64,000 nt of DNA from Helicobacter cetorum. GTDB lineage: Bacteria; Campylobacterota; Campylobacteria; Campylobacterales; DZAY01. The stretch spans positions 1 to 64,000 of the forward strand of contig DZAY01000005.1 in assembly GCA_022729735.1 (NCBI GenBank). Reading direction: 5' to 3'. Both the position numbers and the translations under genes were made by a program. Shown here in pieces: positions 7,181 through 64,000 of the stretch. A model generated the notes under the pieces. It worked only from the letters and a program-made list of their open reading frames with translations. It was not told the DNA's origin and made no database searches. The first letter of the stretch is position 1; each line of letters starts with the position of its first letter.

Positions 7181-7189
7181 CACTTATCC

Positions 7190-9694: not shown

Positions 9695-9742
9695 TTGAAC
9701 CCTTTTTTTTAAATTTATGTCGCTTTTATATCGCATAAAGTT

Positions 9743-38102: not shown

Positions 38103-39394
38103 AAAAAGTAGTTACTCTTTTACTAATCTCTCTTTCTCTTTTTGGTGCAGAATTACACTTTGATACATTTAAAAAATTAAGTGGTGTAGGACATACACTA
38201 CTAATTATTGGTGGAATTCACGGAGATGAACCAGGTGGATATTTCGCACCATCAGTAATAGTTACACACTACAAAGTTAAAAAAGGAAATTTAGTAATTA
38301 TTCCAAATCTAAATGCTGATAGTATAGTTGCAAATCAGCGAGGCATATATGGTGATATGAATAGAAAATTTGCAAATGTAGATAGTAAAGACCCAGATTA
38401 TAAAATTGTAAATGATATTAAAAATATGATATTGGATAAAAATGTAGATTTAATTTTAAATCTTCATGATGGAAGAGGATTTTTTAGAAATAGTTGGCAA
38501 AATTCTATTTTTAATCCTTCAGCTTGGGGACAAGCATATATAATTGACCAAAAAGAGATAAATAATAGTAAGTTTGGAAATTTGGATGCTATTGTTCAAA
38601 GAGTTATTGAAAATTTAAATAAAAACTTAGAAAAAGAGCATCATATATTTAATATTAAAAACACAGAAACAAAATTTAAAGATGAAGAGATGAAACATTC
38701 ACTCACATATTTTGCAATTACAAATAATAGACCTGCTTTAGCTATTGAAACGAGTAAAAATATAGAAGAGCTTTGTCAAAAAGTGTTGTATCAATTGAGG
38801 TCAATAGAAGAGTTTATGAAGATTATGGAGATTGAATATGAGAGAGATTTTGAGCTAAACTTAAACTCTATTAAAAAAATTATTTATGATTTTGGCACTT
38901 TAAATATAAATGGAAATATTGAGCTTGATTTAAATAGTGTAAGAAAAAATCTTAATTTTATCCCATTAAATAACAATAATAAAAATGATTTTAGCTTTAG
39001 TAGTCCAATTGGAAAAGTTAAAAAAGATGGTGATAATTATAATATTTATATTGGAAATATATTAATTACAACTCTAAAAGCTCAATATTTTTATCCAAAT
39101 TGCGATTTAAGCGAGGTGGAGTTTATCATTGATGGTAAAAATCAAAAAGTTAAAGTTGGCTCAACTATAAATGTAAAAAAGGATTTTTTAATTAAAGATA
39201 TTAAAGATATTAAAGGTATTAGAGTTAATGTAATAGGTTTTGTAACTCAAAATAGAGTTTCTCAAGATAATGTATTAATTGAAAAAGGTGATATTTTGAG
39301 CCGTTTCTCATTAGATGAAAATAGTAAAACTTACAGAGTAGAGTTTTATAAAGAAAATAACTTTTGTGGGATGATAAATGTTAAATTTGAGTAG
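38099..39394 (+). CDS. pgp1: Pgp1/Csd4-like D,L-carboxypeptidase (M14-type)
   Basis: Pgp1/Csd4 cleaves peptidoglycan tripeptides to dipeptides and sets helical shape. The 431-residue periplasmic protein has a signal peptide (about 1-17) and the M14-like zinc site GGIHGDEPGG (H41, E44) with the third ligand in LILNLHDGRGF; NQRGIYGDMNRKF is also typical. Helicobacter pylori Csd4 is known for a glutamine at the first ligand position; here it is the usual histidine. Two C-terminal all-beta domains follow (about 245-431), as in Csd4. It overlaps pgp2 by four bases and the first pilus gene by 17, so shape and pilus genes form one transcript. Confidence 0.88.
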   Translation: MKKVVTLLLISLSLFGAELHFDTFKKLSGVGHTLLIIGGIHGDEPGGYFAPSVIVTHYKVKKGNLVIIPNLNADSIVANQRGIYGDMNRKFANVDSKDPDYKIVNDIKNMILDKNVDLILNLHDGRGFFRNSWQNSIFNPSAWGQAYIIDQKEINNSKFGNLDAIVQRVIENLNKNLEKEHHIFNIKNTETKFKDEEMKHSLTYFAITNNRPALAIETSKNIEELCQKVLYQLRSIEEFMKIMEIEYERDFELNLNSIKKIIYDFGTLNINGNIELDLNSVRKNLNFIPLNNNNKNDFSFSSPIGKVKKDGDNYNIYIGNILITTLKAQYFYPNCDLSEVEFIIDGKNQKVKVGSTINVKKDFLIKDIKDIKGIRVNVIGFVTQNRVSQDNVLIEKGDILSRFSLDENSKTYRVEFYKENNFCGMINVKFE

Positions 39395-40952: not shown

Positions 40953-41578
40953 AAACTTTGACATTTAGCGAGAGATTTAATAACTCAATAAAAAGTAAAA
41001 AAAAGAGCGAACAAGCAATTATATTTGTATTACCAATCATAATAGCTATATCTTTATCTACATATCTTATTATGCCAACAATGGATAAAAGATTAAAAGA
41101 AGCACAAAAGAGAAATGCTCAAATAGAGTCTCAAATTTCAACGGTTAAAACATATTTATACTCTATTGGTGCTTTGAGTGGAATAGATGTAGAAAAAGAG
41201 TTAGGTATAAAATTAAGTGAAATTGAAAATGACATTTTAAAAAATAATTTAGAAAAAGATAAACTTAGGTATTCACTTTTGGAATTGAATTCAAATCAGA
41301 GTGATTGGACAAATCTACTAAACACTCTTGCAAATAGAGCCTTAGAGCTTAATCTAAAAACTAATGTAATTTCAAAAGATAATATTGATAGTAATTTGAC
41401 TTATCTTAAAGAGCGAGAGTTTGATTTTGTTGGTAGTGGAGATTTTAAAGATATTATAAGATTTATGAATTTTATAGAGTTACAAACAGGATTGGTAAAA
41501 ATAAAAAGCATAAATTTAGATTATAAAGATGAAATTAATTTCAGAATTAAAATCACCATCATGGAGCTTATTATATGA
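40949..41578 (+). CDS. PilO/MshJ-like pilus inner-membrane protein
   Basis: A 209-residue bitopic protein: short cytoplasmic N-terminus, membrane helix (about 25-44, AIIFVLPIIIAISLSTYLIM), coiled coil (about 50-105) and a C-terminal ferredoxin-like domain ending NFRIKITIMELII. This layout and its position after the PilM/N-like gene match PilO or MshJ, which form the inner-membrane alignment complex that links the ATPase platform to the secretin. Both its ends overlap neighbours by four bases. Confidence 0.72.
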   Translation: MKTLTFSERFNNSIKSKKKSEQAIIFVLPIIIAISLSTYLIMPTMDKRLKEAQKRNAQIESQISTVKTYLYSIGALSGIDVEKELGIKLSEIENDILKNNLEKDKLRYSLLELNSNQSDWTNLLNTLANRALELNLKTNVISKDNIDSNLTYLKEREFDFVGSGDFKDIIRFMNFIELQTGLVKIKSINLDYKDEINFRIKITIMELII

Positions 41579-42009
41579 AAAAAACTGTAATTTTTTTAAT
41601 ATCTATTTTAAATATTTTCGCAGAGCCACTATTTGTAGTTCCAAAAATGGATATTGATAAAAATATAGATGATATATTTGACCCATTTCCTCAAAAAATT
41701 ATAGAAGAAAACTCTACTGATTATAGTCAAGATGGAACGGAAATTGCTCCACCTATTGATATTGTTCAAACACTAAAGTTTGAAGCAAAAATTGATAATA
41801 GAGTGTTGCTTAGTGGCAAGTGGTATAAAAAAGATGATAACATCTCAACTTATAAGATTGTAGATATTAATAAAACCGATGTTCGCCTCTTAAACAGCGA
41901 AACCAATGAGACACTTTATATATCAGTTTTTGCAAAACAAGATAATATAAAAAGTAGGATTTTAGATGAAAATAAAACTCTTAATCTTAATGTCTATCAT
42001 GGTAAGTAG
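41575..42009 (+). CDS. PilP/MshK-like periplasmic pilus assembly protein
   Basis: A 144-residue secreted protein with a signal peptide (about 1-17) and one small beta domain (VLLSGKWYKKDDNISTYKIVDINKTDVRLLN) of the kind found in PilP and MshK, where it bridges the PilN/O complex to the secretin. No lipobox cysteine is visible. The secretin gene starts 44 bases before its end, in another frame, an unusually long overlap. Confidence 0.65.
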   Translation: MKKTVIFLISILNIFAEPLFVVPKMDIDKNIDDIFDPFPQKIIEENSTDYSQDGTEIAPPIDIVQTLKFEAKIDNRVLLSGKWYKKDDNISTYKIVDINKTDVRLLNSETNETLYISVFAKQDNIKSRILDENKTLNLNVYHGK

Positions 42010-43609
42010 TTTAGGTGCAAATAGTTGTCAATCAAGACTTTTTACTATCGATAGCAAAGATTTAACTATTAGCAAATTTTTAAACTATATGGCACAAGAG
42101 TGTTCATTAGGAGTTCTCTATAAAGATAGATATGCAAAAGATTTAGCAGAGAGTAGTAATTTAAATCTTTATCTTAAAGATGTAACTCTAAATGAGCTTT
42201 TAGAAATTACTTTGAAAGAGAATAAACTTGCTTATGAATTTAATAATAAAATAATAAAAGTTAGCTATGAAGTGTCAAAAACATTTACACTTGACTATAT
42301 TAGTGGCACAAGAACTGGTAAAAGCACAACAAACATCGACCTTTCATCAGGAGTTGGAACAACTAATGTAGCTACTGCTAATAGTGGTAGTGGTGGAACT
42401 GCTGGTGGAGGTTCAAATATTAATATTGAGTCAGGAAGTGATTTTAATGTTTGGACACAAATAAAAACAGATATTGAAGAGATTTTGAAAAGTTCAAACT
42501 CTGATGGAAATATGAGTGGTTATCAACCAACTGTATTTATAAATGAAGGTGCAGGATTTATAAATGTAACTGGAAATATTGAGCAGATAGATAGAATAGA
42601 ACACTATATAAATGAAATTTCAAAAAAATTAACAAATCAAGTATTAATAGATGTGACAATTTTGAATGTTACACTAAATCATAACCAAAAAACTGGTATA
42701 GATTGGGGACAGTTACAAAGCATTTTAAATGTTGGTGTTGATTACTCATTAGGATATGGAGATAGTAGAAAAAGAGATGGAAATAAAGAAACAGTTGGTA
42801 TTGTGAATAATGGAAATGGTGGTTCAAATAGTTTAAGCCTTTCTTTAAGTGATGCACCAACACCATCAACAGGATTAGATGGCACAACTTCAACTACAGC
42901 AGGTGGCAGTGAAATACAATCTGAATTTAATGCAAATCCAGCTCTTTTGAATGGACAAAAAGTTTATGATGCAAAATCTATATTAAATAGTTCATCTTTT
43001 GCAATTAGTGGAAATGTAAATTTTAATGAAGTGATTAGATTTCTAAAAACTCAAGGAGATGTAAAAAGTGTATCAAATCCTAAAGTATTAACTCTAAATA
43101 ATCAACCAGCAATTATAAGTGTTGGTGAGCAGATATTTTATAGAACAATACAAGTTACATCAACAACAACACAAGCGACTCAAACAAATACAGCCACATC
43201 AATAGAAAATGTATTTACAGGAGTTTTGCTTGATATTACTCCAACGATTACTAATTCAAATGAGATTATTTTAAAAATTAATCCATCAATTAGCTCACCA
43301 AGAAATGATATAGCATTTAATGGAAATATTAGAGAAATGCCACCAGATATATCAAAAAAACAGCTTAACTCTGTGGTAAAAGTTAAAGATGAAGATAAGA
43401 TTATAATTGGAGGACTTATAAATACAACTCTTCAAGATGATGAGTCAAAAGTCCCATTTTTAGGAGATATTCCTTTAGTTGGAAATCTATTTAGACAAGA
43501 TACAAAAGGTGAAGTAATATCAGAATTAGTAATTATAATTACTCCACATATTATAAAAAGTGATAAAGCTCCATCTTTAAAAGATTTAGGTTATAACAAT
43601 GTCGAATAG
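41966..43609 (+). CDS. mshL: MshL-like outer-membrane secretin
   Basis: The pilus outer-membrane channel, 547 residues. A signal peptide (about 1-18) precedes a secretin N-terminal STN-like domain (about 25-95), a Gly/Ser/Thr-rich stretch (about 115-155), an N-domain (about 160-225, VFINEGAGFINVTGN) and the C-terminal secretin beta-domain (about 330-540) with KSVSNPKVLTLNNQPAIISVG and KVPFLGDIPLVGNLFRQD, the diagnostic late motifs. The start inside the PilP-like gene is supported by the signal peptide. It overlaps the ATPase gene by 11 bases. Confidence 0.92.
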   Translation: MKIKLLILMSIMVSSLGANSCQSRLFTIDSKDLTISKFLNYMAQECSLGVLYKDRYAKDLAESSNLNLYLKDVTLNELLEITLKENKLAYEFNNKIIKVSYEVSKTFTLDYISGTRTGKSTTNIDLSSGVGTTNVATANSGSGGTAGGGSNINIESGSDFNVWTQIKTDIEEILKSSNSDGNMSGYQPTVFINEGAGFINVTGNIEQIDRIEHYINEISKKLTNQVLIDVTILNVTLNHNQKTGIDWGQLQSILNVGVDYSLGYGDSRKRDGNKETVGIVNNGNGGSNSLSLSLSDAPTPSTGLDGTTSTTAGGSEIQSEFNANPALLNGQKVYDAKSILNSSSFAISGNVNFNEVIRFLKTQGDVKSVSNPKVLTLNNQPAIISVGEQIFYRTIQVTSTTTQATQTNTATSIENVFTGVLLDITPTITNSNEIILKINPSISSPRNDIAFNGNIREMPPDISKKQLNSVVKVKDEDKIIIGGLINTTLQDDESKVPFLGDIPLVGNLFRQDTKGEVISELVIIITPHIIKSDKAPSLKDLGYNNVE

Positions 43610-44420
43610 TAATAAATTTGAAAAAGCAAAGGATTGTTTTGCAGATGCTGAAGGTGTAAGGTTTATAAATTTAGATACATCTGTTTTGGCATTTGAAAAA
43701 TTGGCTGAAAGTGTTGAAAATAGTCATATCAAAATGACTCTATTAAGTGGTCTCCCTGGAACTGGCAAAAGTGTATTATTGGAAAAAATATATGAGAGAT
43801 ACAAAGAAAATATGAATATTTTGCTTGTAAAAATACCATTTGACTCAATAGAATCTCTACTTTGGCAAATAAATAATATGTTTATATTTTTGGCAGATAG
43901 AGATATAGATGAGATGAAAAGTTTTACATTGATGCTTGATAAAATTGCAAATGGATTAAATGATAAACAGATTATAATTCTTTTAGATGAAGCACAAATA
44001 TATGCAGAAAAAGAGTTAGAATATATTAGACTTTTATCTGATACCAAAAAATTTAAATTTATATTAGCTCTTCATGAGTTAAAAAATGAGACAGTAATTG
44101 TTAGAGAATATTTCAAATCAAGAATTTGGCAAATAATCAAACTTGAAAACTTATCAAGAAGTGAAGTTCATGTATATATTGAAAAAAAACTATTGGCATA
44201 TAGTTTATATGATGTTATAGTTCTGTTTTCAAAAACAAATTATAGTTTGATTTATAAATTAACTCATGGTAATCTTAGAAACATAAATAAATTGCTCTTT
44301 TTAGTATTTAATATAGTTGATTATTACTCAAAACATGATGGAACAAAGGTAGATATGGCTAAAATTCCAAATAAAATTATTGAAATGGCGGCAATTGAGT
44401 TAGGATTTATAAATGGGTAG
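43599..44420 (+). CDS. mshM: MshM/ExeA-like AAA+ ATPase
   Basis: A 273-residue AAA+ ATPase with Walker A LLSGLPGTGKSVLLEK (about 47-62), Walker B IILLDEAQIY (about 126-135) and a helical C-terminal region (KLTHGNLRNINKLLFL). ExeA/MshM proteins help assemble the secretin in the envelope. It lacks a C-terminal peptidoglycan-binding domain and any membrane helix, as MshM does. Overlaps mshL upstream and the MshN-like gene downstream by eight bases. Confidence 0.85.
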   Translation: MSNSNKFEKAKDCFADAEGVRFINLDTSVLAFEKLAESVENSHIKMTLLSGLPGTGKSVLLEKIYERYKENMNILLVKIPFDSIESLLWQINNMFIFLADRDIDEMKSFTLMLDKIANGLNDKQIIILLDEAQIYAEKELEYIRLLSDTKKFKFILALHELKNETVIVREYFKSRIWQIIKLENLSRSEVHVYIEKKLLAYSLYDVIVLFSKTNYSLIYKLTHGNLRNINKLLFLVFNIVDYYSKHDGTKVDMAKIPNKIIEMAAIELGFING

Positions 44421-45144
44421 ATATTCAGAATTAGAAAATAGATGGTTAAAATATAAGATAAAAACTCTTATTTATAAACTAATAATACCTCTGTTTGTTA
44501 TACTTATTTTACTTTTAATATACTTCTTTATAAAAGATGGAGTAGATACTAATCAAACTATTATTGAAACAAATACCACAACTCCAGAAAGTTCATATAG
44601 CTCTACTTCAATATCACCAGAATTAAATAAAACATTAAAAGCAGATTTTGGATTTGTAGATAGAATAAAAGATAAAGTTCAAAAAGAAGGACTTGCTCCA
44701 CCACCTCCACCAACAACAAAAATAGATTTACCTCCACCAATAGTTATACCTGCAAGTAGTAGTAGCAGTAGTAGCTCTCAAAAATCTTCAAGTAGCTCTA
44801 CAATGGGGTTTAATCTTCAATCTAAAGAGATGAATACAAAAGCAGATAAATTAGAGCTATTAGAGAGTAAATTCAAACAGAGCAATGATATAAAAGATGC
44901 TTTAGAGCTTTCAAGAGAGTTTTACAAAGTCAAAAACTATCCAAAAGCTCTAAATTGGGCAATTATTGCAAATGGTATTGATAGTAAAAATGCTGATAGT
45001 TGGATTATGTTTGCTAAATCTAAATATAAAATTGGAGATAGAGGAAAAGCTATTGAAGCTTTGGAAATATTTTCTAAAACAAGCAATTCAACAAGAGATG
45101 TTCTATTAGTGCTTGAAGCTATGAAAAGAGGAATTTTAGAATAA
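44413..45144 (+). CDS. MshN-like TPR pilus protein
   Basis: A 243-residue bitopic protein with one membrane helix (about 19-43), a proline- and serine-rich periplasmic linker (PPPPP and two serine runs, about 95-130) and a TPR-like C-terminal domain (ALNWAIIANGIDSKNADSWIMFAKSKYKIGDRGKAIEAL). This build and its position after the ExeA-type ATPase correspond to MshN. The serine run is encoded largely by AGT/AGC triplets near 44752-44800 and could vary in length. Its stop codon overlaps the next gene's start by one base. Confidence 0.7.
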   Translation: MGRYSELENRWLKYKIKTLIYKLIIPLFVILILLLIYFFIKDGVDTNQTIIETNTTTPESSYSSTSISPELNKTLKADFGFVDRIKDKVQKEGLAPPPPPTTKIDLPPPIVIPASSSSSSSSQKSSSSSTMGFNLQSKEMNTKADKLELLESKFKQSNDIKDALELSREFYKVKNYPKALNWAIIANGIDSKNADSWIMFAKSKYKIGDRGKAIEALEIFSKTSNSTRDVLLVLEAMKRGILE

Positions 45145-45677
45145 TGAGACCAGTTTTACTTATTTTTATATTTTCACTCACACTATTTGCAAATACAAGA
45201 GATTCTATTATGCAAATGTATAGCAGTGAAAATTATGAAAAAGCTTGTTTAGTTGGTAGTAGATTATTTGAAAAATATCCAGATGAAGATTTTATATCAA
45301 TGGTGGGATTTGCTTGTTTATATTCTGATTATGTAGATAAATTGATAATTCCTATTACAAAATTGAGAGATACAGAAGGTGGGCGAAAAAATTCTGCATT
45401 TTTTGCAATTGCACTAATGCAAAAAAAACTGTTATATTCTGCACTAATTGATAATATTGATATATTTGGAATTTCTATTCCAAGTATTGATTATGTTTTA
45501 TCAAAAATTTTTAATAAATATGTGCGAAAAGAGTTTATTTTAGAAAATGGAACATATATTATAAAAGATGGAGATTTGGAATACAAAATGAGAGTTGTTC
45601 AAAGTGGAGGTTACAAAAAAATTCAAGTTGATATATTTAAAAACTCTAAATTTATAAAAACTCACTACTATTGGTAA
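45144..45677 (+). CDS. Periplasmic protein of unknown function in the pilus operon
   Basis: I do not recognise a family. The 177-residue product has a signal peptide (about 1-17, MRPVLLIFIFSLTLFA), a helical-repeat-like first half (SENYEKACLVGSRLFEKYPDEDFISMVGFACLYSDYVD, TPR-like) and a short beta-rich end (EYKMRVVQSGGYKKIQVDIF). It lies between MshN-like and MshE-like genes with one-base and four-base spacing, so it is probably a periplasmic pilus assembly factor. It has no obvious equivalent in the Vibrio msh locus. Confidence 0.6.
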   Translation: MRPVLLIFIFSLTLFANTRDSIMQMYSSENYEKACLVGSRLFEKYPDEDFISMVGFACLYSDYVDKLIIPITKLRDTEGGRKNSAFFAIALMQKKLLYSALIDNIDIFGISIPSIDYVLSKIFNKYVRKEFILENGTYIIKDGDLEYKMRVVQSGGYKKIQVDIFKNSKFIKTHYYW

Positions 45678-45681
45678 GATT

Positions 45682-47460
45682 ATGGCAGAAATAACACAAC
45701 CTCAACAACCTGTAAAAATGAGAATAGGTGATAGATTAGTTCAAGCTGGATTAATCACCAATGAGCAGTTAATGCAAGCTTTGGGAGTGCAAAAAACTTT
45801 AACTGTTAGAAAAAAAATTATTAGAGTATTGGCAGATTTAGGTTTTATTGATGAAGATAAACTTATGGAATTCTTTGCCGAGCAAGGACGACTTGGCAAC
45901 TTAAATCTTGACTCAATTATTGAAGATTTTCCTGCTAATGAAGATGAAATACTTAAAAAGCTTAGTGGTGCATTAAAATTAGAGTTTATAGATTTGGAAA
46001 ACATAGATATAGATTCTAAAATTGCTACATCTGTTCCATTTGCTCAACTAAAAAAATTCTTAGCAATTCCAATTAATGAAAGTGAATTTAATATCTTAGT
46101 TGCATTTCGAGACCCATTAGATTTTAATGCTCAAGAGTTAATACAAAGGTCATTTAAGCGAAAACCTATAAAAGTTGTTGTTGCAAAGCGAGAACAAATT
46201 TTAAAATATTTAACTAAATTAGAAACAAATTTGAGTGTTTTGGATTTAGTTGTCAAAATTCGTCAAGAAATTTCACTAAATACTAATACAGAAAACATAG
46301 GTAAATCTACAAGTATTTTAAAGTTAATAGAGGTGATTTTAAAAAGTGCAATTACAAGTAGAGCAAGTGATATTCATATAGAGCCAACAATTAATGGTTG
46401 TATTGTAAGGCATAGAATTGATGGACTTTTGCAAGAGAGTTTTTCATTTGATGAAGATATTTTCCCGCCACTATCTTCAAGAATTAAACTCTTAGCATCA
46501 CTTGATATTGCAGAAAAACGAAAACCTCAAGATGGAAGATTTAGTGCAAAAATAGCAAATAAAGATTTTGATTTTAGGATTTCAACTCTTCCAACACTTT
46601 TGGGTGAATCGATAGTTATTAGGATACTTGATAAGTCAAAAATTATGATTAAATTAGAAGATTTAGGATTAAGTGAAAGCACATTTAAACGACTAAAAAA
46701 AGCGATGTCTTCACCACATGGAATGATTTTTGTAACAGGACCAACAGGAAGTGGTAAAACAACAACTCTTTATGCAGCTCTAAGTGCAATAAAAAGTGTA
46801 TCTAAAAAAATTCTAACAGTTGAAGACCCAGTTGAATATCAATTACCAATGGTTCAACAAATTGGTGTAAATGAAAAAGTTGGATTAACTTTTGCAACGG
46901 TTTTAAGAAGTATATTAAGACAAGACCCAGATATTATAATGATAGGTGAGGTTAGGGATACAGAAACCTTAAGAATTGCTATTCAAGCTGCATTAACAGG
47001 ACATTTAGTTTTTTCTACACTTCACACAAACGATGCAATTAGTGCAATTACAAGACTACTTGATATGGGAATTGAGAGTTACTTTGTAAGTAGTTCAGTT
47101 GTTGCAATCCAAGCACAAAGATTAATTCGGAGATTATGTGTGCATTGTAAAAAACCGACAGATTTAGCTGATAATGTATATGAAGAGATAAAAGATTATA
47201 TTCCAAAAGAGCATCAATTTTATAAAGCAATAGGATGTGATAAATGCTCAAATACAGGATATTTTGGGCGAGATATGGTTACTGAAATTTTACTTATAAA
47301 TGATAAAATATCTCACTATATAGCACAAAGAGCAGATATAACTTTAATCAAAGAAGAAGCATTTAGAGATGGGTTTAAAACAATGTTTGAAGATGGTGTA
47401 TTAAAAGCTTCAAAAGGTATTACAACGATGGAAGAAGTTTATAGGGTTACAAAATTATAA
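45682..47460 (+). CDS. mshE: MshE-like pilus extension ATPase with N-terminal MshEN domain
   Basis: The 592-residue cytoplasmic GspE/PilB-family motor. Residues about 14-70 form an MshEN domain: the first 24-residue cyclic-di-GMP motif reads RIGDRLVQAGLITNEQLMQ..GVQ (14-37), close to consensus, while the second (45-68) has KII where RLG is expected. The ATPase core has GPTGSGKTTTLYA, the Asp and His boxes, Walker B IMIGEVRD and a tetracysteine zinc site (CVHCKKP, CDKCSNTG). Pilus extension may thus respond to cyclic-di-GMP (inference from MshE of Vibrio). mshG starts on its last base. Confidence 0.92.
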   Translation: MAEITQPQQPVKMRIGDRLVQAGLITNEQLMQALGVQKTLTVRKKIIRVLADLGFIDEDKLMEFFAEQGRLGNLNLDSIIEDFPANEDEILKKLSGALKLEFIDLENIDIDSKIATSVPFAQLKKFLAIPINESEFNILVAFRDPLDFNAQELIQRSFKRKPIKVVVAKREQILKYLTKLETNLSVLDLVVKIRQEISLNTNTENIGKSTSILKLIEVILKSAITSRASDIHIEPTINGCIVRHRIDGLLQESFSFDEDIFPPLSSRIKLLASLDIAEKRKPQDGRFSAKIANKDFDFRISTLPTLLGESIVIRILDKSKIMIKLEDLGLSESTFKRLKKAMSSPHGMIFVTGPTGSGKTTTLYAALSAIKSVSKKILTVEDPVEYQLPMVQQIGVNEKVGLTFATVLRSILRQDPDIIMIGEVRDTETLRIAIQAALTGHLVFSTLHTNDAISAITRLLDMGIESYFVSSSVVAIQAQRLIRRLCVHCKKPTDLADNVYEEIKDYIPKEHQFYKAIGCDKCSNTGYFGRDMVTEILLINDKISHYIAQRADITLIKEEAFRDGFKTMFEDGVLKASKGITTMEEVYRVTKL

Positions 47461-48704
47461 TGAGATATTTTGATGTTACAGTCTTAATTAAAGGCAAAAA
47501 AGAGATAGTTAAAATTAAAGCAGAAAGTCGTCAAGATGCTATTTCAATTGCAAAAAATAGAGTTGTTGGAATTCCATTAAGAGCAATTGAGGGCAATCCA
47601 TCTTTGATGAACTTATATGATGAGCATATAGGTAATATCAAAAATAAAATTATTCCAAAAAAAAATATAAAAATAGAAACTATAATTGGAGCTATGCGAC
47701 AATTAGCTGTAATGACTGGAGCTGGAATATCTATTCATCAATCAATCCAAAATATAATTGATATGACAAATGAAAAAGATTTTAAAGAGATTATGCAGAC
47801 AGCTTATGATGGAATAAACTCTGGAAAAAGTTTAAGTGAAGCTCTTTTACCATACAAAAAAGAGCTTGGAAATTTGACAATTTCTATGATAGATTTGGGT
47901 GAAAAGACAGGAAATTTACCAGAATCACTTGCAATGCTTACAAAAACTTTAGAAGATTTAAAAGAGAATAGAGATAAATTTAAAAAAGCTCTAAGGTATC
48001 CATTGATTACTTTAACTGCTATGGCAATCGCATTTGTTATTCTAATTTTATTGGTTGTGCCAAAATTTAAAGCAATTTTTGCATCATTTAAAGCAGAACT
48101 GCCAATGCCAACAAAAGTTTTACTTGCAATAGAACATGCTTTATCAAATTATGGATTGCTTATTTTAGGATTTTTTGTAGCCCTATATTTTGCATTTAAA
48201 TATATGTATGGAGCTAATGAAAATTTTAAAAATAGTGTAGATAGATACACTCTAAAGCTCTATTTAATTGGTGATATTATCTATTTATCTTCATTAAATC
48301 TATTCATGATTTCAATATCACAATTAGCAAAAGCAGGAATTCCATTAACTGATGCTCTAAATTCTGGAATTAGTATGGTTGATAATAAATATTTAAGAGA
48401 TAAACTTTCACTAATTTCAGCTTCAATTCAAAAAGGTGGAGATTTAACAACAGGTTTTAAAGATAGCGAACTATTTGAAAATATGATTATTCAAATGGTT
48501 CATGCTGGAGAAATTAGTGGTAGTTTAGATGAACTGCTTGGCAAAGGGGCTCAATATTATAAGATGAGATTTGATAATATTTTGGATAACATCTCATCAT
48601 ATATTGAGCCTTTAATGTTGGCATTTATCGCAGGATTGGTGCTTTTATTAGCATTAGGAATTTTCTTACCTATGTGGGATTTATCATCAGCTGTTAAAAA
48701 GTAA
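47460..48704 (+). CDS. mshG: MshG/GspF-like inner-membrane platform protein
   Basis: A 414-residue polytopic protein with two T2SSF domains (about 70-195 and 275-395), three membrane helices near 185, 225 and 385, and the conserved MRQLAVMTGAGISIHQSI and LAKAGIPLTDALNSGI signatures. It is the rotor/platform on which the extension ATPase acts. Length is normal for GspF/PilC. It follows mshE without a gap and precedes aroE by 12 bases. Confidence 0.92.
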   Translation: MRYFDVTVLIKGKKEIVKIKAESRQDAISIAKNRVVGIPLRAIEGNPSLMNLYDEHIGNIKNKIIPKKNIKIETIIGAMRQLAVMTGAGISIHQSIQNIIDMTNEKDFKEIMQTAYDGINSGKSLSEALLPYKKELGNLTISMIDLGEKTGNLPESLAMLTKTLEDLKENRDKFKKALRYPLITLTAMAIAFVILILLVVPKFKAIFASFKAELPMPTKVLLAIEHALSNYGLLILGFFVALYFAFKYMYGANENFKNSVDRYTLKLYLIGDIIYLSSLNLFMISISQLAKAGIPLTDALNSGISMVDNKYLRDKLSLISASIQKGGDLTTGFKDSELFENMIIQMVHAGEISGSLDELLGKGAQYYKMRFDNILDNISSYIEPLMLAFIAGLVLLLALGIFLPMWDLSSAVKK

Positions 48705-54183: not shown

Positions 54184-54855
54184 TTAATTCTCCTCTATAA
54201 CCAATCCTGTAATTGGCTTTATTATTATGCTTTTTTGAGTTCCAGAGCTGTGAGTTAGTGTTATTTTGCAATCAGAAGTGATTAAAGATGATGTGTTATA
54301 AGGATTTGTTGATGTGTTGTTTTTGTATGGTCTGCCAAGTTCATCAAAAAATATTCTTCTACTTTGATTTATTCCTTGGTTATTGGTGCAAGATGAAGAA
54401 AATTTTATATCTGTAATACCAAAATTGTATAGTTGCATTCTTTTATTAACTCTATCATCATCAATAGATAATATACCACTTTGACCACCACTTAAATATT
54501 TATCTCTATTTTGAGAATCTTTAGGATTTAAAATATCAATTGCTATATTATCTCCTATATTTACATCTCCATCTTGATTTAAACTATCTTGATATATAGA
54601 AAAAGCCCAAACATCTGTCACATCAACACTTCTATTAAAATTTAACTGCCATCTATCCTTAAACCATTCTGGATTATTTTTATCATACATATCTTGAGAT
54701 AGTGCTAAATGCTGTGTGTATCTTAAATAATATACAACCTCATCAACTGCTTCTTGTAACTCATCTCCATCAAATTTAAATGAAATAAAACTTGCTAAAA
54801 TACCTCCAATAATAATTACAAATATTAACTCTATCATTGTAAATGCTTTTTTCAT
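54184..54855 (-). CDS. Prepilin-like (GspH/MshC-type) protein
   Basis: A 223-residue type IV prepilin or pseudopilin. The N-terminus MKKAFTMIELIFVIIIGGIL is a class III signal with the conserved glutamate at mature position 5 and a hydrophobic helix; the residue before the cleavage site is alanine rather than glycine, as in its neighbours. The globular part has a disulfide candidate pair (C...C in SSSCTNNQG and SDCKITL). The size and layout suggest a minor, GspH-like pilin rather than the main subunit. Its ATG overlaps the stop of the preceding gene by four bases. Last gene of the mshQ operon. Confidence 0.75.
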   Translation of the reverse strand: MKKAFTMIELIFVIIIGGILASFISFKFDGDELQEAVDEVVYYLRYTQHLALSQDMYDKNNPEWFKDRWQLNFNRSVDVTDVWAFSIYQDSLNQDGDVNIGDNIAIDILNPKDSQNRDKYLSGGQSGILSIDDDRVNKRMQLYNFGITDIKFSSSCTNNQGINQSRRIFFDELGRPYKNNTSTNPYNTSSLITSDCKITLTHSSGTQKSIIIKPITGLVIEEN

Positions 54856-55232
54856 GGTTTTTGCACCGTTCTTCTATGAAATCTAATTGGCTCATTAGTT
54901 ATACACTCTCTTGTAGTAACTATTACATCAATAACTGCCGTCCCATTTGTCTCTGGAGTATCACCAATATATTGATAAGTTATATTTATATCAAATACAT
55001 CACTTACATTTATATCTGAAAAAGTTAAATTTTCAGTTGAATAATTATGCTCACTCATTCTAAAAATTGCATATTCTGTGGCACTTCTTGCTAATAGTTC
55101 TGCTTGTGTTCTTAAATATGTGTCTTGTGTTTGCTTTGTGATAATTGATGAGATAGTCATAATATATGTGCCAAATAGAGCAATTACAACCATAATAATA
55201 ATTGCCAAAAGTATTCCAAAACTTTTTCTCAA
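54852..55232 (-). CDS. Small prepilin-like/PilX- or MshP-like protein
   Basis: The track begins at 55253, but TTG 55232 is a better start: it overlaps the previous stop (TTTTGA), has GAGAGG eight bases before it and yields MRKSFGILLAIIIMVVIALFG, a short leader followed by one hydrophobic helix. This resembles MshP/PilX-type proteins, which lack the glutamate of true pilins. The 126-residue product has two cysteine-free beta-rich segments and ends in RRTVQKP. Order after the MshO-like gene supports an MshP-like role. Confidence 0.62.
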   Translation of the reverse strand: MRKSFGILLAIIIMVVIALFGTYIMTISSIITKQTQDTYLRTQAELLARSATEYAIFRMSEHNYSTENLTFSDINVSDVFDINITYQYIGDTPETNGTAVIDVIVTTRECITNEPIRFHRRTVQKP

Positions 55233-56176
55233 AATATTGCCCTCTCTTTGCAAACAGTAGCATTTATATCTTCATACTCTGGCAAACAGTGGTTTATACA
55301 GACTCTAATTCTCATAACTCCACTCTCTTGAATAAATCTAAATGATTCCACATTTGTGGCTAAAGGCTCTTGTTTTGTATTTATATCACTATATTTTTCT
55401 CCATTCCACGGACGATAGTCATAATAAAGAGTTAAATTGTAATCGTTGTCATTATTTGGATTGATATTTTTATCCATTCGCAGAGCATAAGCACTATCAA
55501 CTAAATAGTATTGTTCAAAAAGTGCTGTATCTTCTAAGTTTTTACTTCTATCAATATTGAAATTATCATTATTAATTACTGTAATATCAAAAATTCCTGT
55601 TGCATTATTATCAAATTTATAACCAAAACCAGCAATTAAATCATTTCCAAAGTAGTAACCTCTATAATCTTTATCTGTAAATACAAGAGCCACTTTTTTG
55701 TTTGTAAAAACATCAATATCATTAAATATTGCTCCATCTATATCTTGCACAACTGATAGATTTGTATCTGGTGAATAAATAGTATGAAATTTAAAAACAG
55801 TATCATATATAGATGAGTTCATATTTATATATCCACTCCACCCAAGAGTAACAGTTACTCCATCATTTGATATACCTCTTTGAGACTCATAAGCTATCCC
55901 TATCCACTCAAGTGTATCGTAAGTATCATCAACAGCTTCAATAGATTTATAATTTGCTCCATTTATTGAGCCAACTACACTATTTTTTATTCTATATTGC
56001 AATCTACTTGCTATCTGTTCGGTTATAACTTTTGTTTGAAACTCAAGCTCATTTGTGATTTTTGAAGTTAAATATTTTTCATAAATTCCAATTACAATAT
56101 TAAAAGATATTGCACTAACTATTCCCAATACTACAATTACAAATATCATCTCTAAGAGTGAAAAAGCTTTTCTCAT
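55229..56176 (-). CDS. Large minor prepilin-like protein (MshO-type)
   Basis: A 315-residue protein with the class III prepilin start MRKAFSLLEMIFVIVVLGIVSAI (conserved glutamate, alanine before the cleavage site) followed by a long helix and a large beta-rich globular domain. Size and operon position match MshO or GspJ-like minor pilins, which initiate assembly at the pilus tip. It overlaps the upstream gene by four bases and the downstream TTG start by two. Confidence 0.72.
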   Translation of the reverse strand: MRKAFSLLEMIFVIVVLGIVSAISFNIVIGIYEKYLTSKITNELEFQTKVITEQIASRLQYRIKNSVVGSINGANYKSIEAVDDTYDTLEWIGIAYESQRGISNDGVTVTLGWSGYINMNSSIYDTVFKFHTIYSPDTNLSVVQDIDGAIFNDIDVFTNKKVALVFTDKDYRGYYFGNDLIAGFGYKFDNNATGIFDITVINNDNFNIDRSKNLEDTALFEQYYLVDSAYALRMDKNINPNNDNDYNLTLYYDYRPWNGEKYSDINTKQEPLATNVESFRFIQESGVMRIRVCINHCLPEYEDINATVCKERAIF

Positions 56177-56832
56177 TGCACTTTCCTAATCTCAACTACT
56201 CCAATATTTCCTGCTACATAGTTTAGCTCTGCTATTAGCTCTTTTTTACAATCATAAGATTTAATGCTAATTTGCTTTAAATTTGTTGAAACACTGCTAT
56301 TTTCATACCAATTAGTTTTATTACTGTCTGTATAGTCATCTTTTATATATTTAACTGTTACATTTATATCATATCCATTTAACTCTTCACCATAACCATT
56401 AAATGAGCTTATACTTGTTTTTGGTGCAGTTGGAATTAATATTGGTATTGGAGATAAATTTGGTGGTGTTGGATTATTTACAGCTTGAGCTACTGTGCAA
56501 GTTCTAAATAAACTTTCACCAATTCCAGCTACATTTTCAAATATACTTCTCTCTCCTAAAGTAGCATTAATATCACTATTTAACATATTTTGACATGTTG
56601 AGTTAATAACAGTTAATATTTTATTTACATTTTCATTTTTATTTTCATCATCCCATGGAAATGATAATATTATATTCATTAAAGCTATTGAGTGAAATAT
56701 TGCTTGTTGCTTGATAGCTTCTTCATCACTTTTATTTGCTTCTGTCATAAGAAATGGAATTGTTAGCATAGATATAGATATTATAACTATGCTAAATACA
56801 AGTTCAATTAGTGAAAAAGCTCTTTTTACCAT
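56173..56832 (-). CDS. Minor prepilin-like protein (MshD/GspI-type)
   Basis: A 219-residue protein with prepilin start MVKRAFSLIELVFSIVIISISMLTIPFL, again with glutamate at mature position 5 and alanine before cleavage. The C-terminal part contains four cysteines (NSTCQNML, RTCTVAQ, SYDCKKE) and a proline-rich loop (NNPTPPNLSPIPIL). Most likely a minor pilin. Its start overlaps the end of the giant mshQ-like gene by seven bases. Confidence 0.7.
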   Translation of the reverse strand: MVKRAFSLIELVFSIVIISISMLTIPFLMTEANKSDEEAIKQQAIFHSIALMNIILSFPWDDENKNENVNKILTVINSTCQNMLNSDINATLGERSIFENVAGIGESLFRTCTVAQAVNNPTPPNLSPIPILIPTAPKTSISSFNGYGEELNGYDINVTVKYIKDDYTDSNKTNWYENSSVSTNLKQISIKSYDCKKELIAELNYVAGNIGVVEIRKVQ

Positions 56833-59800
56833 TGCATTCTAATAGATGAATTTACATCTTGTTTTTTTACTTTAACAGTATCATCTACAGTTTTACCACT
56901 TCCACCCCAATCATTAGTTAGACTACTGATAAACTCCAATGAGAATGTTGGATGATTTAGTGGAGATTGTGAAGTAGCAAATTCTATATATGCTCCTCCA
57001 AATTTTGTATAATATAGATACTCTGGTATTGATAAATGGACTATCTCTTTATGTTTTTCATTAGTTCCACTATATGAGAAGTTTCGAGTTATATCACCAT
57101 TATTAAATGGTATCGGAGCTAATGAAGTTCCACTCATATTTTCATTTGGTTTTAGATTAATAGCTTTTACTTCTGAAACACTATCTTTAGAATTTATATA
57201 CCAACCAATATCATTTGGACTAACACTAAATCCACTTATTCCCATTTCAACCTTATTACAAGTTTTGCAATATATTTCAGAGTAAATTTTTGCATCAACA
57301 CTTTTATCATAAATAGTTACATCTTTACCTTTTACTCTACCATAATAGAATGTTGCATTTTTATCTGGATTTGTTGTTACATTTCCTTCTACCAAACTAT
57401 TATCTTTAATTGTAAAGTTAATATCAACTTGAGTTCCATTTATAAACCTTGGCTCAAGTAAAGTATTATAAGCTCTACTATAATTAAATCTATAATCATT
57501 TAAATTAAGTGTTGTTTCACCATCAATAAAGCTTAAATCTTCATTGTTAAAACTTAAATTATCATCTACATGAATTGGATTATCTGGAATATTAAAGATA
57601 TTACTTAATGTAATATTCTCTTCATACAATCCATTTGAGTAGTTTTTGGTTATTTCATTTAGATGGTTTATAGCTTTAATCTTGAGTGATAAGTTTCTAA
57701 CTAATGCACTCATATTTAAATCATTAGAATAGTATGTAAAGTTAGCATCTGAAAAGTTATTATCTAAATATGGTTGATTTATAAATGTAACTTCAAACTG
57801 TTTTGGAGTGAATTTAACCATATTTGAGTTAGCACATATATCACATCCAACTTTTCCTTCACTATCTTTAGCATTACTACAACTATTAGAAACACAATCA
57901 TTTGGTTGGTCTATTTCAGTCCATTTTTTATCAGTAAGATTTAAATCAATATATCCAATATCAGAGTAGTTAAAATCAACCAAAGTTACTGCTGTGCCAT
58001 TTATTGTAAATGGAGAGCCTTTTACAAAATTTCCATTTAAAGAGTTATCTATATCAATTTTATTTGGCATATATTTATTGTAAATAATAGTTAAATTAGT
58101 ATCTCCTTGAATATATCCGTTATCAGAAGCACTAAATTGTAACTCACTATGTGTTAATCCTGCAATATATGAAGACCTTAAAAACAGCATCGTTAAGCTA
58201 TATGGTTTAATTGCAAAGCTATCTAAATTTTCTTCACCTTTTTTATCATCAATAACTTCTGCATCTTGTTTATTAATTAGTGCATCTTCTTCACTAATCA
58301 ATCTCCACTCCAATATAGGCTGAAGATGTTTATAACTTTCATTTATTGCTGGAATAGTAAATGTATATGATGTGTGGTCTTTATTTATAACTTCCCAACT
58401 GCTAAAAGGCACAACTACTGTATTGCCATTTGTTACATCTACTATTTTGACTCTTACTTGATAATTTTTATCTCCAATTGTTTCTGGATTTACCGCAGTT
58501 ATAGTTAAATCAAAAGCTTCTCCAGCAGTTTTTGTTGTAATACTATTATTATGTTCGCCACTTCTAAGAGGATTTAATATATCAAAATCTGTCAAAGTTG
58601 GTGGAACTAACTTTATATCATCACCACTTTCTATCTCTATTCCTTCAAAACTATTTCCACCAATCACATTTTCACTAAAATCTGTTTGATATGTAGCTTT
58701 GAAATCTGTTGTATCTTCGCTTTTTGCTCTTATAGTATATGTGAAAGTCTCTTCACCATATTTATTAAGCGACAGAGAATTAGGAACATTATCACTATTT
58801 ACTAACTCAAATTTATCTTCATCTAATAATATATCAACAATATTTATATTGGTTAAATCATAATCATGTTGATTTTTTATAGTTACACTAACTGTTATTG
58901 TTTCTCCAACTTCAGCTGGATTATCAGTAGTAATATCATTTCCATCTCTATCTTTTAAGTTTGTTGTAAATAGTAAAGGCTCTTTTAGTGCTGAAGTTGC
59001 AACAACTCCTACAAAATATTTATCGCTATTATCTACACTAAAATCAATCTCATTTAATAAAGTAAAGTTTAAAACAATTTTATTATCTGATGCTTCTTCA
59101 AATTTATTTAGATAGCTTTGTGTATCGACTAACATTTTATCATCACCACCACTATTACCACCATAACCAAATATTGTTGTATTTGCATCTTTGAGATTGA
59201 AATTTTTTGTAGAGTTTCGCTCAAATATTCCATTTGTCTCATTTTTTTCACTTCTATTTGCAATACCAACAAATCCATCTTGAATAGCAACATTTCTAAT
59301 TTTTTTGATAGTTGAATTATCTTCATAAGCAACTACCAAAATCCATCCAGCAAATCCACTACTATACTCTATTCCACTTATTGAATAATCTCCTGAACTA
59401 TTTATCTCATTTGTTACATCAAGTGAGCCTTGATAAGCTAAATTATTACTATCTATAACTATATTTGTATTTGGATAAGTTACAGAATTGCTTTTAAAAG
59501 TTATACTGTCTGCTGTTTTATAAAGTATATCATCTCTATAATTACTTAAATATCCATACCAATATAGTCTTGCATACTCTATTTTTGCATTAGTTGGAAT
59601 ATTGCTTATAGAGATAATTCCACTTGTTCCACTAAATACTTTATAATCTCCTTGTAAATTTTTTGAAAAAATAGTATCAAATGGTTTTGGTTTAGCCATC
59701 AATCCTATATTTATAGTTTTAAAATCATCTTTTTTAGCTGATGGTATAAATGAAACATCTGAAGTTAGTTTTACATAATTTGTTATATTACTACCAATCT

Positions 59801-62800
59801 CTTTACCTTTTACATCTATTTTGATAGTTGTAGTATCTACACTTATATCTCCAAGTGGTATAGTTATATTTCCATCTGCTATATCTTCTGGAGCTATATT
59901 TATATATGTTGAACCTCCATCTATACTGTATTTGATAGATTCTATATTTGTCTCATTTAAATCTACTAATAGTTTAGAGTTAGTAAGTGTATGAGATGAT
60001 AATTTTGAAATATCTACAATCAAAGAAAACTCTGTATCAATTGGAATAACTCCATTATCACCAATCCCAACTCCATTACTATCTTCCATTTTTAGAGATA
60101 GCATTACATCAGCTTCCAAACCTTCTCCAACAATAATTCTTTGAGGATTACTTTTTCCAAGTGTTTTTGTATCAAGTGAGCTTTTTGCTTCTACTTGTGA
60201 ATAGAAATCTCTATCACTATTTGGAGATTTTATAGTAAAGCTAAATTCAGAGAAATTTCCATCTTTATTTATAGTTCCATTTAATTGACACTCTAAATTA
60301 TTACTAATTGTATATGGAGGAGGTGGAGGACAATCCCAACCATTAGCTGTAACTAAACCAGTAAATACAAAACCGTCTAAAAGACTTACAGAAATTTTTG
60401 GATTATCTTCATTAAAAGGAGCTTTATTAGTTAATTTAACTGTATAGTTTATAGTCTTATTATAGCCAACACTTACATCTCCATTACTATTTTTTGGAGT
60501 TACATTAGCTTCTACTGAAAATTTAGATACATATATAGTTGTATTTATAAATGCATTATCCACACACTTTGGAACTACATTATTGAAATTCATTTTTAAA
60601 GTATCACTCACATAATTTACCATATATGTATTATTAATCTCTCCATTTTGAGGATAAGAGATAATATCAGAGTTATATTTGTATTCTGCTTTTCCATTTA
60701 CAGCTATTTGACCACCATTTGTAGCATTAGCTCCAGTTCCAACTCTAACTTTTAATTTATATTCACTATCCACATAATCAACTTCATCATCACCAACTGC
60801 ATTTGTTTTTTGGACACCATTTAAATAAGTTCCATTAGTTTTGTTATATCCAAGTGGTGCATCAAATATTTTATCTATTTGAACTTTTGATGCCTCTTCT
60901 GTTCCTATATTTGATACATTTACTTCAAATACTAATCTATCTCCTAAAAAGATAGATGTATTTTCATCAACAATCAAATCATTTTTATAAATTGTTTCAA
61001 GATAACAAACTTTTGGAGAGTATAGCTCTGTTGCGAATGCAACCATTCCAGGATAATATTGGTCGCCAGATGTTTCAAGTCTTATCGTTGTTGAAGTTTG
61101 AGAATTACTAATAATATTAGAACCAGTCGTTCCAACACTAAACACATCTATATCAATTCCCATATTATTATTTAAAGTTGGATTTCTTGGAGTTCCATTA
61201 TTTATAGACGAGTTAAATACATTATTTATATTTGAAGCATCTACATTTTGAAAATTGCCAATTTTATCAGTAAGTTGAAATTTATCATCTCTATATGGTA
61301 AATCGCCTTCACCTGCAAATACAAAAAGTTCTGAATTTACATTTCCACTTGCTGGAGTTAAAAATCCACTTATATTAATATCTACCCTTCTATATCCTGT
61401 GCTATCTTGAACATTTTTATATCCTGTAAATAGAGATAAGTTTTTATAACTATCTTGTAAATCTTCATAAGCAACAGTTAATGCCCAAGCACCATAGTAG
61501 TTTGTTTGTCCCTCATCAACATATAAGTCTGCAACTGTATAAGTTCCACTATCTTTAATTAAATTTGTAATGTTTTTATAACATTGATATGATTCTCCAT
61601 TATAAAAACATTTTCCACCATCTAAAGCATCAATTTCAGTGTAATTTGGGGATAATGGTGTTTTTAGTTTTAATCTATTAATATTAGTTCGCTCTTCCAC
61701 ACATATATTACTCCAAGTTCTACAAGTTCCATTAGACCAATATCTTGTACATTGAGTTTCTGTTCTTATACATTCTGAAATATTTTCAGTTCTACCTTGC
61801 CAACTAAGCAAAGCATATTTAATTTTTGCATCTGGTCTTAATACCAAATCTGCACTACTTGAATTAAATGTTGAGCTATTATTATCAACATCTACATAAT
61901 AAGTCCTTACATCATTATTTGCTTTTGTAGAGTTTGGCACACAATTGCCACCACTTTTTTCACATAAAACCACATTACCTATTAATTTTATATTTCCATA
62001 TAAATTGCTATTATAAACTAATCTAAAATCTTCATATCCAGTTTGTAGATTTGAAGTAGCTTTATTTATAGTTATAATCATAATATCATTTACACTTCCA
62101 TAACCATCACTTACATTAAAATTAAAACTATCATTACTATCATCTCCATAAGTGTGAAGATACTCTATTTTTCCATCATCAATATCTTTTTGAGTGAAAT
62201 TTTGACTTGTTGAAGTTATAGCTACACCACTATAATATATGACACCTTTTGTAGGAAGTGCTGTAATTGTATATACTAATTGCGAAGTATTTTCTTCATT
62301 ATCAGTAGCTTTTAGATTAGAGTTTGTAACTATTTTTCTCTCATTTTGATTAACTGTTATAGATTTATTTATGATTTGTGGAAGTGAATTTATTTTGATA
62401 CCCAAACTCGATGACACAATATTAAAACCATCAGTTAGATTAAAATACAATCTACTAAGTGAAATAGTTCCATTACTAACAAAAGTAACTCTTCCATAAT
62501 CTATATCACTTTGAGTGAATGTTCCTCCAACTCCTAAATTAACTCCATTTAGCTTGATAGTTCCATTTGTAGGTAAAGTCGTAATAGTATAAACTAATTG
62601 TGCTGGATACTCTTCAGCATCAGTTGCTGGTAAATTTAAATTTATAATCTTTGCACTCTCATTTACATTTACAAATAGATTAACAGGAGTAATAACTGGT
62701 GCATCATTTATAGGATTTACATAAATTTGCATAGTTCCAAGTGGTGATGAGCTTAATGTTCCATCAGTTACACCAAAATTAAAACTATCGCTTGTTGTCT

Positions 62801-63725
62801 CACTACCATCATGTTTATAGCTTATATTTCCATCATTTATATCTTTTTGAGTAAATGTGCTATTTGTATCTAATAAAACTCCATTTTTATATAAATTTCC
62901 ATGTATCGGCAAAGAGTTTAAATGATATACTAACTCTTCTGGTTTTTGTTCTTTATCAGTCGTATTTAACTCTGTACCTTTTATAACTTTTGTTGTATTT
63001 TCATCTATTCTCATTTCGCTAATTTTAATTTCTGGTGGAGTAATATTTGCACACTCATTCACATTCAAATTCAAAAGAGCATTGCTATCATATTCTACAT
63101 TTCCTCCACCGTTTATTCTTATTTCTTTTCCTGAAACAATAGCACCTTTAACTGTTCTATTTACATGTATATTAGCATTAGGTGCATATATAAAAGCATT
63201 AAGAGGAGATGATGTTTGCACTGCAAAATTATTTGTACCAAGATATATTATAACAAGCTTAGATGATTCTGTGTTATCAAACTTCCCATCTAATGTAATA
63301 TTTCCATTGATGTAAATTATAGTAGTACTACTTCCTGTTAGATGAACGGTTTTACCACCATTTAACTGAAAGTTTGAAAAATAGTGTGTGCCGTCTGTGA
63401 GATATAAATCAGTATCATTTTGATGAGCAAGGTCTGGGAAATTTGTATAACTACCAGAACTATTTAATTCAAGTGCTTCAACATTCATATTGCTTTTATA
63501 ACACTCTAAACCATCACATCTTGAATTTAAATTATTCCCAGAAAGATTTGTAGTATCTAATACTCTATCTCCTGTTGAAGTTAATGTTCCATCTATATAA
63601 ATAGTTCCACCAGATAGATTTGATACAGCATTACTAAAAACCAAGGAGCATTGAGGTGAAGCAATAGCACCCATATTAAACCCAAAAACTATTAACCCAA
63701 AAACAATACGAATAAAATTTTTCAT
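56826..63725 (-). CDS. Giant MshQ-like pilus-associated adhesin
   Basis: A 2299-residue secreted protein. After a signal peptide (about 1-22) comes the MshQ-type N-terminal domain (about 25-225). Three CSPG/cadherin-like repeats (about 235-555) share LVYTIT.LPT.G and FTQ.DID.G. Two copies of a large module (about 560-950 and 1350-1640) follow, each with AKI.YA.L.W and AW.L.VAYED-like signatures and a DUF11-like Ig domain. The end (about 1780-2299) is a DUF6701-type MshQ domain (FTPKQFEVTF, FYYGRVKGKD, GISGFSVSPNDIGWYIN). AAAAAAGG precedes ATG. First gene of the second pilus operon; likely tip or shaft adhesin (inference). About twice the length of Vibrio MshQ-class proteins, largely through the duplicated module and repeats. 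Confidence 0.85.
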   Translation of the reverse strand: MKNFIRIVFGLIVFGFNMGAIASPQCSLVFSNAVSNLSGGTIYIDGTLTSTGDRVLDTTNLSGNNLNSRCDGLECYKSNMNVEALELNSSGSYTNFPDLAHQNDTDLYLTDGTHYFSNFQLNGGKTVHLTGSSTTIIYINGNITLDGKFDNTESSKLVIIYLGTNNFAVQTSSPLNAFIYAPNANIHVNRTVKGAIVSGKEIRINGGGNVEYDSNALLNLNVNECANITPPEIKISEMRIDENTTKVIKGTELNTTDKEQKPEELVYHLNSLPIHGNLYKNGVLLDTNSTFTQKDINDGNISYKHDGSETTSDSFNFGVTDGTLSSSPLGTMQIYVNPINDAPVITPVNLFVNVNESAKIINLNLPATDAEEYPAQLVYTITTLPTNGTIKLNGVNLGVGGTFTQSDIDYGRVTFVSNGTISLSRLYFNLTDGFNIVSSSLGIKINSLPQIINKSITVNQNERKIVTNSNLKATDNEENTSQLVYTITALPTKGVIYYSGVAITSTSQNFTQKDIDDGKIEYLHTYGDDSNDSFNFNVSDGYGSVNDIMIITINKATSNLQTGYEDFRLVYNSNLYGNIKLIGNVVLCEKSGGNCVPNSTKANNDVRTYYVDVDNNSSTFNSSSADLVLRPDAKIKYALLSWQGRTENISECIRTETQCTRYWSNGTCRTWSNICVEERTNINRLKLKTPLSPNYTEIDALDGGKCFYNGESYQCYKNITNLIKDSGTYTVADLYVDEGQTNYYGAWALTVAYEDLQDSYKNLSLFTGYKNVQDSTGYRRVDINISGFLTPASGNVNSELFVFAGEGDLPYRDDKFQLTDKIGNFQNVDASNINNVFNSSINNGTPRNPTLNNNMGIDIDVFSVGTTGSNIISNSQTSTTIRLETSGDQYYPGMVAFATELYSPKVCYLETIYKNDLIVDENTSIFLGDRLVFEVNVSNIGTEEASKVQIDKIFDAPLGYNKTNGTYLNGVQKTNAVGDDEVDYVDSEYKLKVRVGTGANATNGGQIAVNGKAEYKYNSDIISYPQNGEINNTYMVNYVSDTLKMNFNNVVPKCVDNAFINTTIYVSKFSVEANVTPKNSNGDVSVGYNKTINYTVKLTNKAPFNEDNPKISVSLLDGFVFTGLVTANGWDCPPPPPYTISNNLECQLNGTINKDGNFSEFSFTIKSPNSDRDFYSQVEAKSSLDTKTLGKSNPQRIIVGEGLEADVMLSLKMEDSNGVGIGDNGVIPIDTEFSLIVDISKLSSHTLTNSKLLVDLNETNIESIKYSIDGGSTYINIAPEDIADGNITIPLGDISVDTTTIKIDVKGKEIGSNITNYVKLTSDVSFIPSAKKDDFKTINIGLMAKPKPFDTIFSKNLQGDYKVFSGTSGIISISNIPTNAKIEYARLYWYGYLSNYRDDILYKTADSITFKSNSVTYPNTNIVIDSNNLAYQGSLDVTNEINSSGDYSISGIEYSSGFAGWILVVAYEDNSTIKKIRNVAIQDGFVGIANRSEKNETNGIFERNSTKNFNLKDANTTIFGYGGNSGGDDKMLVDTQSYLNKFEEASDNKIVLNFTLLNEIDFSVDNSDKYFVGVVATSALKEPLLFTTNLKDRDGNDITTDNPAEVGETITVSVTIKNQHDYDLTNINIVDILLDEDKFELVNSDNVPNSLSLNKYGEETFTYTIRAKSEDTTDFKATYQTDFSENVIGGNSFEGIEIESGDDIKLVPPTLTDFDILNPLRSGEHNNSITTKTAGEAFDLTITAVNPETIGDKNYQVRVKIVDVTNGNTVVVPFSSWEVINKDHTSYTFTIPAINESYKHLQPILEWRLISEEDALINKQDAEVIDDKKGEENLDSFAIKPYSLTMLFLRSSYIAGLTHSELQFSASDNGYIQGDTNLTIIYNKYMPNKIDIDNSLNGNFVKGSPFTINGTAVTLVDFNYSDIGYIDLNLTDKKWTEIDQPNDCVSNSCSNAKDSEGKVGCDICANSNMVKFTPKQFEVTFINQPYLDNNFSDANFTYYSNDLNMSALVRNLSLKIKAINHLNEITKNYSNGLYEENITLSNIFNIPDNPIHVDDNLSFNNEDLSFIDGETTLNLNDYRFNYSRAYNTLLEPRFINGTQVDINFTIKDNSLVEGNVTTNPDKNATFYYGRVKGKDVTIYDKSVDAKIYSEIYCKTCNKVEMGISGFSVSPNDIGWYINSKDSVSEVKAINLKPNENMSGTSLAPIPFNNGDITRNFSYSGTNEKHKEIVHLSIPEYLYYTKFGGAYIEFATSQSPLNHPTFSLEFISSLTNDWGGSGKTVDDTVKVKKQDVNSSIRMQW

Positions 63726-63874: not shown

Positions 63875-64000
63875 TTAGAAACAGTTATGTTTCAACCAAA
63901 ATGAACTATTTTTTGAAATATTAGAATTGCTCCATCTATTACTAATACTATCATAATAAAAATATTGAGAAAAATCTCCTAATTTACAACTACTTGGAAG
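63875..64000 (-). CDS. C-terminal end of a secreted surface protein (cut by right edge)
   Basis: Not in the ORF track. The minus strand is open from the right edge for 41 codons to TAA at 63877-63875. The tail has FYYDSISNRWSNS and ends FWLKHNCF, closely matching FYLNSIDNSWNS and MWLKHYCN at the C-terminus of the beta-helix protein at 7190, including the spaced cysteine 34-35 residues before the last one. So this is the end of a protein sharing the same tryptophan-rich C-terminal domain. It lies directly upstream of the mshQ-like gene on the same strand. What precedes the domain lies outside the window. Confidence 0.72.
   Translation of the reverse strand, partial: LPSSCKLGDFSQYFYYDSISNRWSNSNISKNSSFWLKHNCF

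Follow-up and report, generated by a model that had tools for sequence, protein, structure and literature searches.

Do two proteins encoded at opposite ends of one stretch of DNA end in the same domain, and if so, what does that domain do? The stretch, which we call the window, is the first 64,000 nts of Helicobacter cetorum contig DZAY01000005.1. An initial annotation proposed that the truncated gene at its right edge and a beta-helix protein 54 kb away share a tryptophan-rich C-terminal sequence with paired cysteines. It took this tail for a sorting, anchoring or secretion signal, placed directly upstream of a pilus adhesin operon.

A shared tail at the two ends of the window

The minus strand of 64000-63875 translates to LPSSCKLGDFSQYFYYDSISNRWSNSNISKNSSFWLKHNCF followed by a stop. 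A gene for a 1622-aa protein has its 3' end in this segment (63875-64000, minus strand), which contains the stop codon and the second half of a module that we name Cys-type. Beyond the window, the gene extends to contig position 68744 (L004:3876-8744), and the N-terminus of its product looks like a signal peptide. The other protein is the product of gene A (7190-9763, minus strand), an exported beta-helix protein of 857 aa when read from a TTG, or 834 aa if the start is the ATG at 9694.

The edge fragment aligns with the extreme C-terminus of the 857-aa protein at 45% identity over 40 residues (BLASTP E 1e-7), with a local score of 89, while 2000 shuffles give a mean of 31.8, a standard deviation of 4.5 and a maximum of 57. 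The full shared domain is about 150 residues long; over 111 of them the two proteins are 38% identical (E 3e-19), and each matches the full profile built from our alignment A1, gene A through its two-unit module at 7196-7636 on the minus strand (E 5e-68). The proposed relationship is thus confirmed, and so is the cysteine pair. In the 1622-aa gene the two codons are at 63986-63988 and, for the penultimate residue, at 63881-63883 (both minus strand, located by sequence), and both cysteines are invariant in 16/16 Cys-type members.

Composition of the module

The tail consists of two tandem W-rich units, each roughly of the form W-x-[LM] ... [WY]-x-[YF] ... W ... G-x-W-[IV]. In Cys-type modules both cysteines are in unit 2, the last of them one to eight residues before the stop (16/16), and the signature W-[VLIA]-[KRI]-[QH]-x(1-2)-C is found near the stop in all but one of the 16. 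A disulfide probably closes unit 2 of this type. A second group of modules is Cys-free. The duplication of the unit is evident in these (z 7.7-8.6), and a pairwise comparison of the two units of the window protein detects no similarity (z 0.3). A profile made from Cys-free units only, with the Cys-type sequences left out, identifies unit 1, with 11-23 bits, in 9/10 of the Cys-type proteins known at that point, the best shuffle reaching 5.1. Compared as whole modules, the Cys-type and Cys-free groups align with an hhalign probability of 98.8 (E 1.2e-16).

The module is unlisted in protein-family catalogues. It has no credible match in Pfam, NCBIfam, PHROGs or PDB sequences (15-20 modules were scanned against Pfam and NCBIfam), and a literature search returned no description of it. 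Segments of the form W-x-L-x-G ... G-x-W-I are probably present in annotated proteins of other phyla. Two AlphaFold models from three-sequence inputs have pLDDT values of 55 and 46, too low to infer a fold.

Distribution and position within proteins

The family counts come from two samples of about 400 genomes, almost all of them from the window's own order. In the phylum, 11 of the 397 sampled genomes have the module (E<=1e-4). It has multiplied in the window genome, which has at least 15 modules, in G210, a contig of which matches JADGEE010000003.1 (Campylobacteraceae bacterium isolate BB28), and in G397 (same family). Many of the sampled genomes resemble metagenome assemblies; contamination of the window genome is estimated at 7.4%. 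Collections of plasmids, phages and viral contigs, through which alone other phyla were covered, contain no module.

The initial annotation expected more members of the family. We find 16 Cys-type proteins in 8 genomes belonging to three families of the order (f1, which is that of the window, f14 and f23). Three of them are in the window genome, the third copy being the tail of a 1195-aa protein on contig C58. All 16 are exported and carry the module exactly at the C-terminus, behind bodies that vary from beta-helix to RCC1-like, FG-GAP and Ig-like while the module and a partner stay constant. We encountered neither an internal domain nor a cytoplasmic carrier.

The wider family is less uniform in its placement. 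In a profile tally of about 69 open frames, 47 matches are C-terminal, 18 are directly behind a signal peptide and 4 were flagged as internal; the tally is approximate, as it takes in some contig-edge fragments and duplicate fragments of one gene. On inspection the four flagged frames are partial matches that are terminal as well. In L116 and L144 the unit profile extends to the C-terminus; L109 and L145 have their first unit directly behind the signal peptide. In all inspected frames the two-unit module is at a protein end, never internal. About 20 proteins carry it behind the signal peptide, so the family as a whole cannot be a strictly C-terminal signal. N-terminal carriers include C11 peptidases, beta-propellers, a Cthe_2159-like protein and an MtrC/MtrF-like multihaem cytochrome (L135:1-1860) in which the module immediately follows the signal peptide. 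One protein of 177 aa consists of a signal peptide and the module alone. In L045:2586-14506 two giant genes (1631 and 2337 aa) are adjacent; their passengers differ, their C-terminal halves are near-identical and close with four W units, as would result from passenger swapping or from a recent duplication.

A partner gene accompanies the Cys-type module

The initial annotation did not include the gene paired with the tail. In 15/15 unfused cases, the gene immediately downstream of the Cys-type gene encodes a protein that is exported and has a long linker; the sixteenth case, the 1622-aa protein, is a fusion. Families f1 and f14 have 10 Cys-type genes, and in 9/9 of the unfused ones the partner, gene B, starts 3-15 nts downstream of gene A. 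Outside the window, complete B proteins combine a signal peptide with a linker rich in P/T/S, a stretch of repeats and a conserved segment resembling FDGKRTIxLxxGxAxI, and they usually close with a Cys-free module. In L079:1-1188 a short Cys-containing motif occurs three times at the start of gene B, with P/T linkers between the copies. Passenger and partner also occur in cis: the 1622-aa protein combines in one chain a Ser linker, B-like repeats, the segment FDGKRTIKLKSG and the Cys module, and in L045, L086 and L095 a passenger is fused to a B region and a Cys-free module.

Family f23 has a different partner. The gene that follows 6/6 of its Cys-type genes, on the same strand and after gaps of about 50-160 nts (hand-counted from coordinates), encodes a protein with a lipobox (ATGC, VSGC, VSGC, ATGC, ISGC, FSAC). 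No homology between this protein and gene B was detected, and the comparison does not support common descent of the two kinds of partner, nor a docking peptide common to both (z about 2 or less). The strongest case for a partner requirement of the Cys-type module is, in our view, that the same arrangement recurs with two unrelated partners. Similarities among A modules and among B N-termini are correlated (Mantel r 0.83); this is partly co-inheritance, and joint inheritance alone can produce it.

Of the A-B cassettes, 5/9 adjoin a response regulator of the OmpR type (L005:4937-7489, L080:704-3228, L156:1659-4158, L078:2710-3426 and L044:5275-7686), in most cases together with a 7TMR-DISM histidine kinase, which hints at regulated expression.

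The A-B pair of the window and its neighbourhood

In the window, gene B (4562-7183, minus strand) is 9 nts downstream of gene A and encodes a signal peptide, a choice-of-anchor U domain (NF041766, 75 bits with a cut-off of 32), a Ser-rich linker and repeats. It has no profile match to the C-terminal module of its relatives, and with its G210 counterpart it has in common the first 49 or so residues only, at 48% identity. In our reading this partner has either been truncated or diverged. About 130 nts past its stop begins a type I restriction operon (151-4429, with hsdS and hsdR by sequence), which lies directly beyond the module-less gene and is possibly an insertion that truncated it. The G210 counterpart of gene A itself is broken into several frames (L041:2438-5199, the same as L098:3764-6456), by decay or by assembly error.

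The proposed link of the tail to the pilus turns out to be one of position alone: no other cassette adjoins pilus genes, which rules out a pilus-specific tail. The pilus locus itself (39378-48704 and 54184-63725) has an MSHA-type-like gene order, with N_methyl matches just below the cut-off. We take its genes to encode a secretin, an ATPase and a membrane protein and, further on, four pseudopilin-like proteins and a 2299-aa cadherin-like protein. HlyD-like and ABC-transporter genes (L004:8799-11538) lie a short way upstream of the 1622-aa gene, and none were seen at the other cassettes that we read.

A proposed terminal module for docking

Rather than a cleaved sorting signal, we think that the tail is a folded module for docking or anchoring that works with a tether. 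The Cys-type module would be the C-terminal plug of an exported passenger A whose body is free to vary. The tether would be supplied by gene B, whose exported product has a long P/T/S linker and ends in a related Cys-free module; in the second lineage a lipoprotein would take this role. B would then hold A at the outer cell envelope, most likely non-covalently. We give an even chance to this reading of the tail as a terminal docking module held by B. What the sequences show directly is the homology, the terminal position, the cysteine pair, the paired genes, the lipoboxes and the fusions; the disulfide, the location at the surface, the contact of A with B and the anchoring are inferred. Four observations lead us to this reading: the module occurs at either end of proteins, as expected for a binding module rather than for a transport signal; its last residues belong to the conserved domain; no sorting enzyme was found; and as partners we see lipoproteins or proteins with a module of their own. 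Against it, the window's B lacks the C-terminal module that a simple module-module contact would need, and no docking peptide common to the two kinds of partner emerged. What survives of the initial proposal, then, is a C-terminal domain on exported carriers. A cleaved or strictly C-terminal sorting signal is not supported, given the N-terminal carriers, the final residues, which are a Trp and a Cys conserved within the domain, and a genome in which neither sortase nor exosortase was found.

The tail could instead be a true C-terminal secretion signal, cleaved or not, read by a dedicated outer-membrane transporter, with B as an accessory or surface receptor. Type IX and type XI secretion are precedents for an outer-membrane transporter that recognises the tail of its cargo, and the strict C-terminal placement of the Cys-type module on exported proteins with unrelated bodies, always next to a neighbour gene, agrees with such a role. 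The homologous Cys-free module also occurs at the N-terminus, however, no Pfam or NCBIfam model of a secretion tail matched, and the missing sortase and exosortase count against it too, so that we think this fairly unlikely. We also rate as unlikely an ordinary ligand-binding domain, for example a glycan-binding one, that has no role in localisation, the gene pair then being a two-chain adhesin or sensor. The W-rich units, carriers such as proteases, beta-propellers and the MtrC-like cytochrome, and the stand-alone 177-aa protein all fit such a domain, but ligand binding does not need a terminal position in all of the roughly 69 frames or a constant pairing with a linker protein or lipoprotein.

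It is very improbable that a C11 (clostripain) protease with an N-terminal module processes the proteins with a C-terminal one. The window genome has two such proteases, and in L140:1667-11086 one of them immediately precedes the gene for a 2365-aa protein that ends in the module, yet G210, which is 99% complete and has many module proteins, is without a C11 peptidase, and this rules out a universal processor.

To return to the docking module, we propose, as a tentative extension, an undescribed two-gene system for surface display. In it, the Cys-locked module would be an address and the B product, whether a tether with a module of its own or a lipoprotein, the receptor dedicated to it. Passengers would be freely exchangeable and in some cases fused to their tether. 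If true, this gives a rule to predict the surface-displayed proteins of these little-studied bacteria. The signature of the module is clear enough that it could be curated as a new protein-family entry.

Comparison with known systems

Sortase (PF04203) is absent from the genome and present in 3 control genomes, and exosortase (PF09721) is absent from the genome and present in 1 control genome. A search for SprA (TIGR04189) found no match in the genome, nor did it in the control genomes. The C-terminal domain of type IX secretion, about 100 residues long, is common to unrelated exported proteins of one genome. The window-type tail is likewise C-terminal on unrelated exported proteins. It differs in that its relatives are also N-terminal, it bears no sign of cleavage, and a partner gene takes the place of a conserved machine; no type IX model matched any of the 15-20 modules scanned in Pfam and NCBIfam.

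The GW modules of Listeria and other cell-wall-binding repeats are tandem W-containing units of surface proteins and probably bind non-covalently. Like GW modules, the tail consists of tandem W repeats at either protein end. Unlike them, it has no Pfam match and another order of motifs, its units come in pairs or fours, its host is diderm, and it has a Cys-type form with a partner gene. The choice-of-anchor U domain, named by NCBI for the varied anchors in whose company it is found, occurs in the window's gene B. Here it is part of the partner, whereas the tail matches no anchor model.

Finally, two papers on type XI secretion (Slam/DUF560; PMC8406197, PMC12282271) describe surface proteins and lipoproteins of diderms that are encoded beside a helper. 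The carriers of the tail resemble this system in being encoded beside a partner. The adjacent partners have no Pfam match to the DUF560 outer-membrane protein, and the neighbour here is instead a linker protein or a lipoprotein, where type XI secretion has an outer-membrane barrel.
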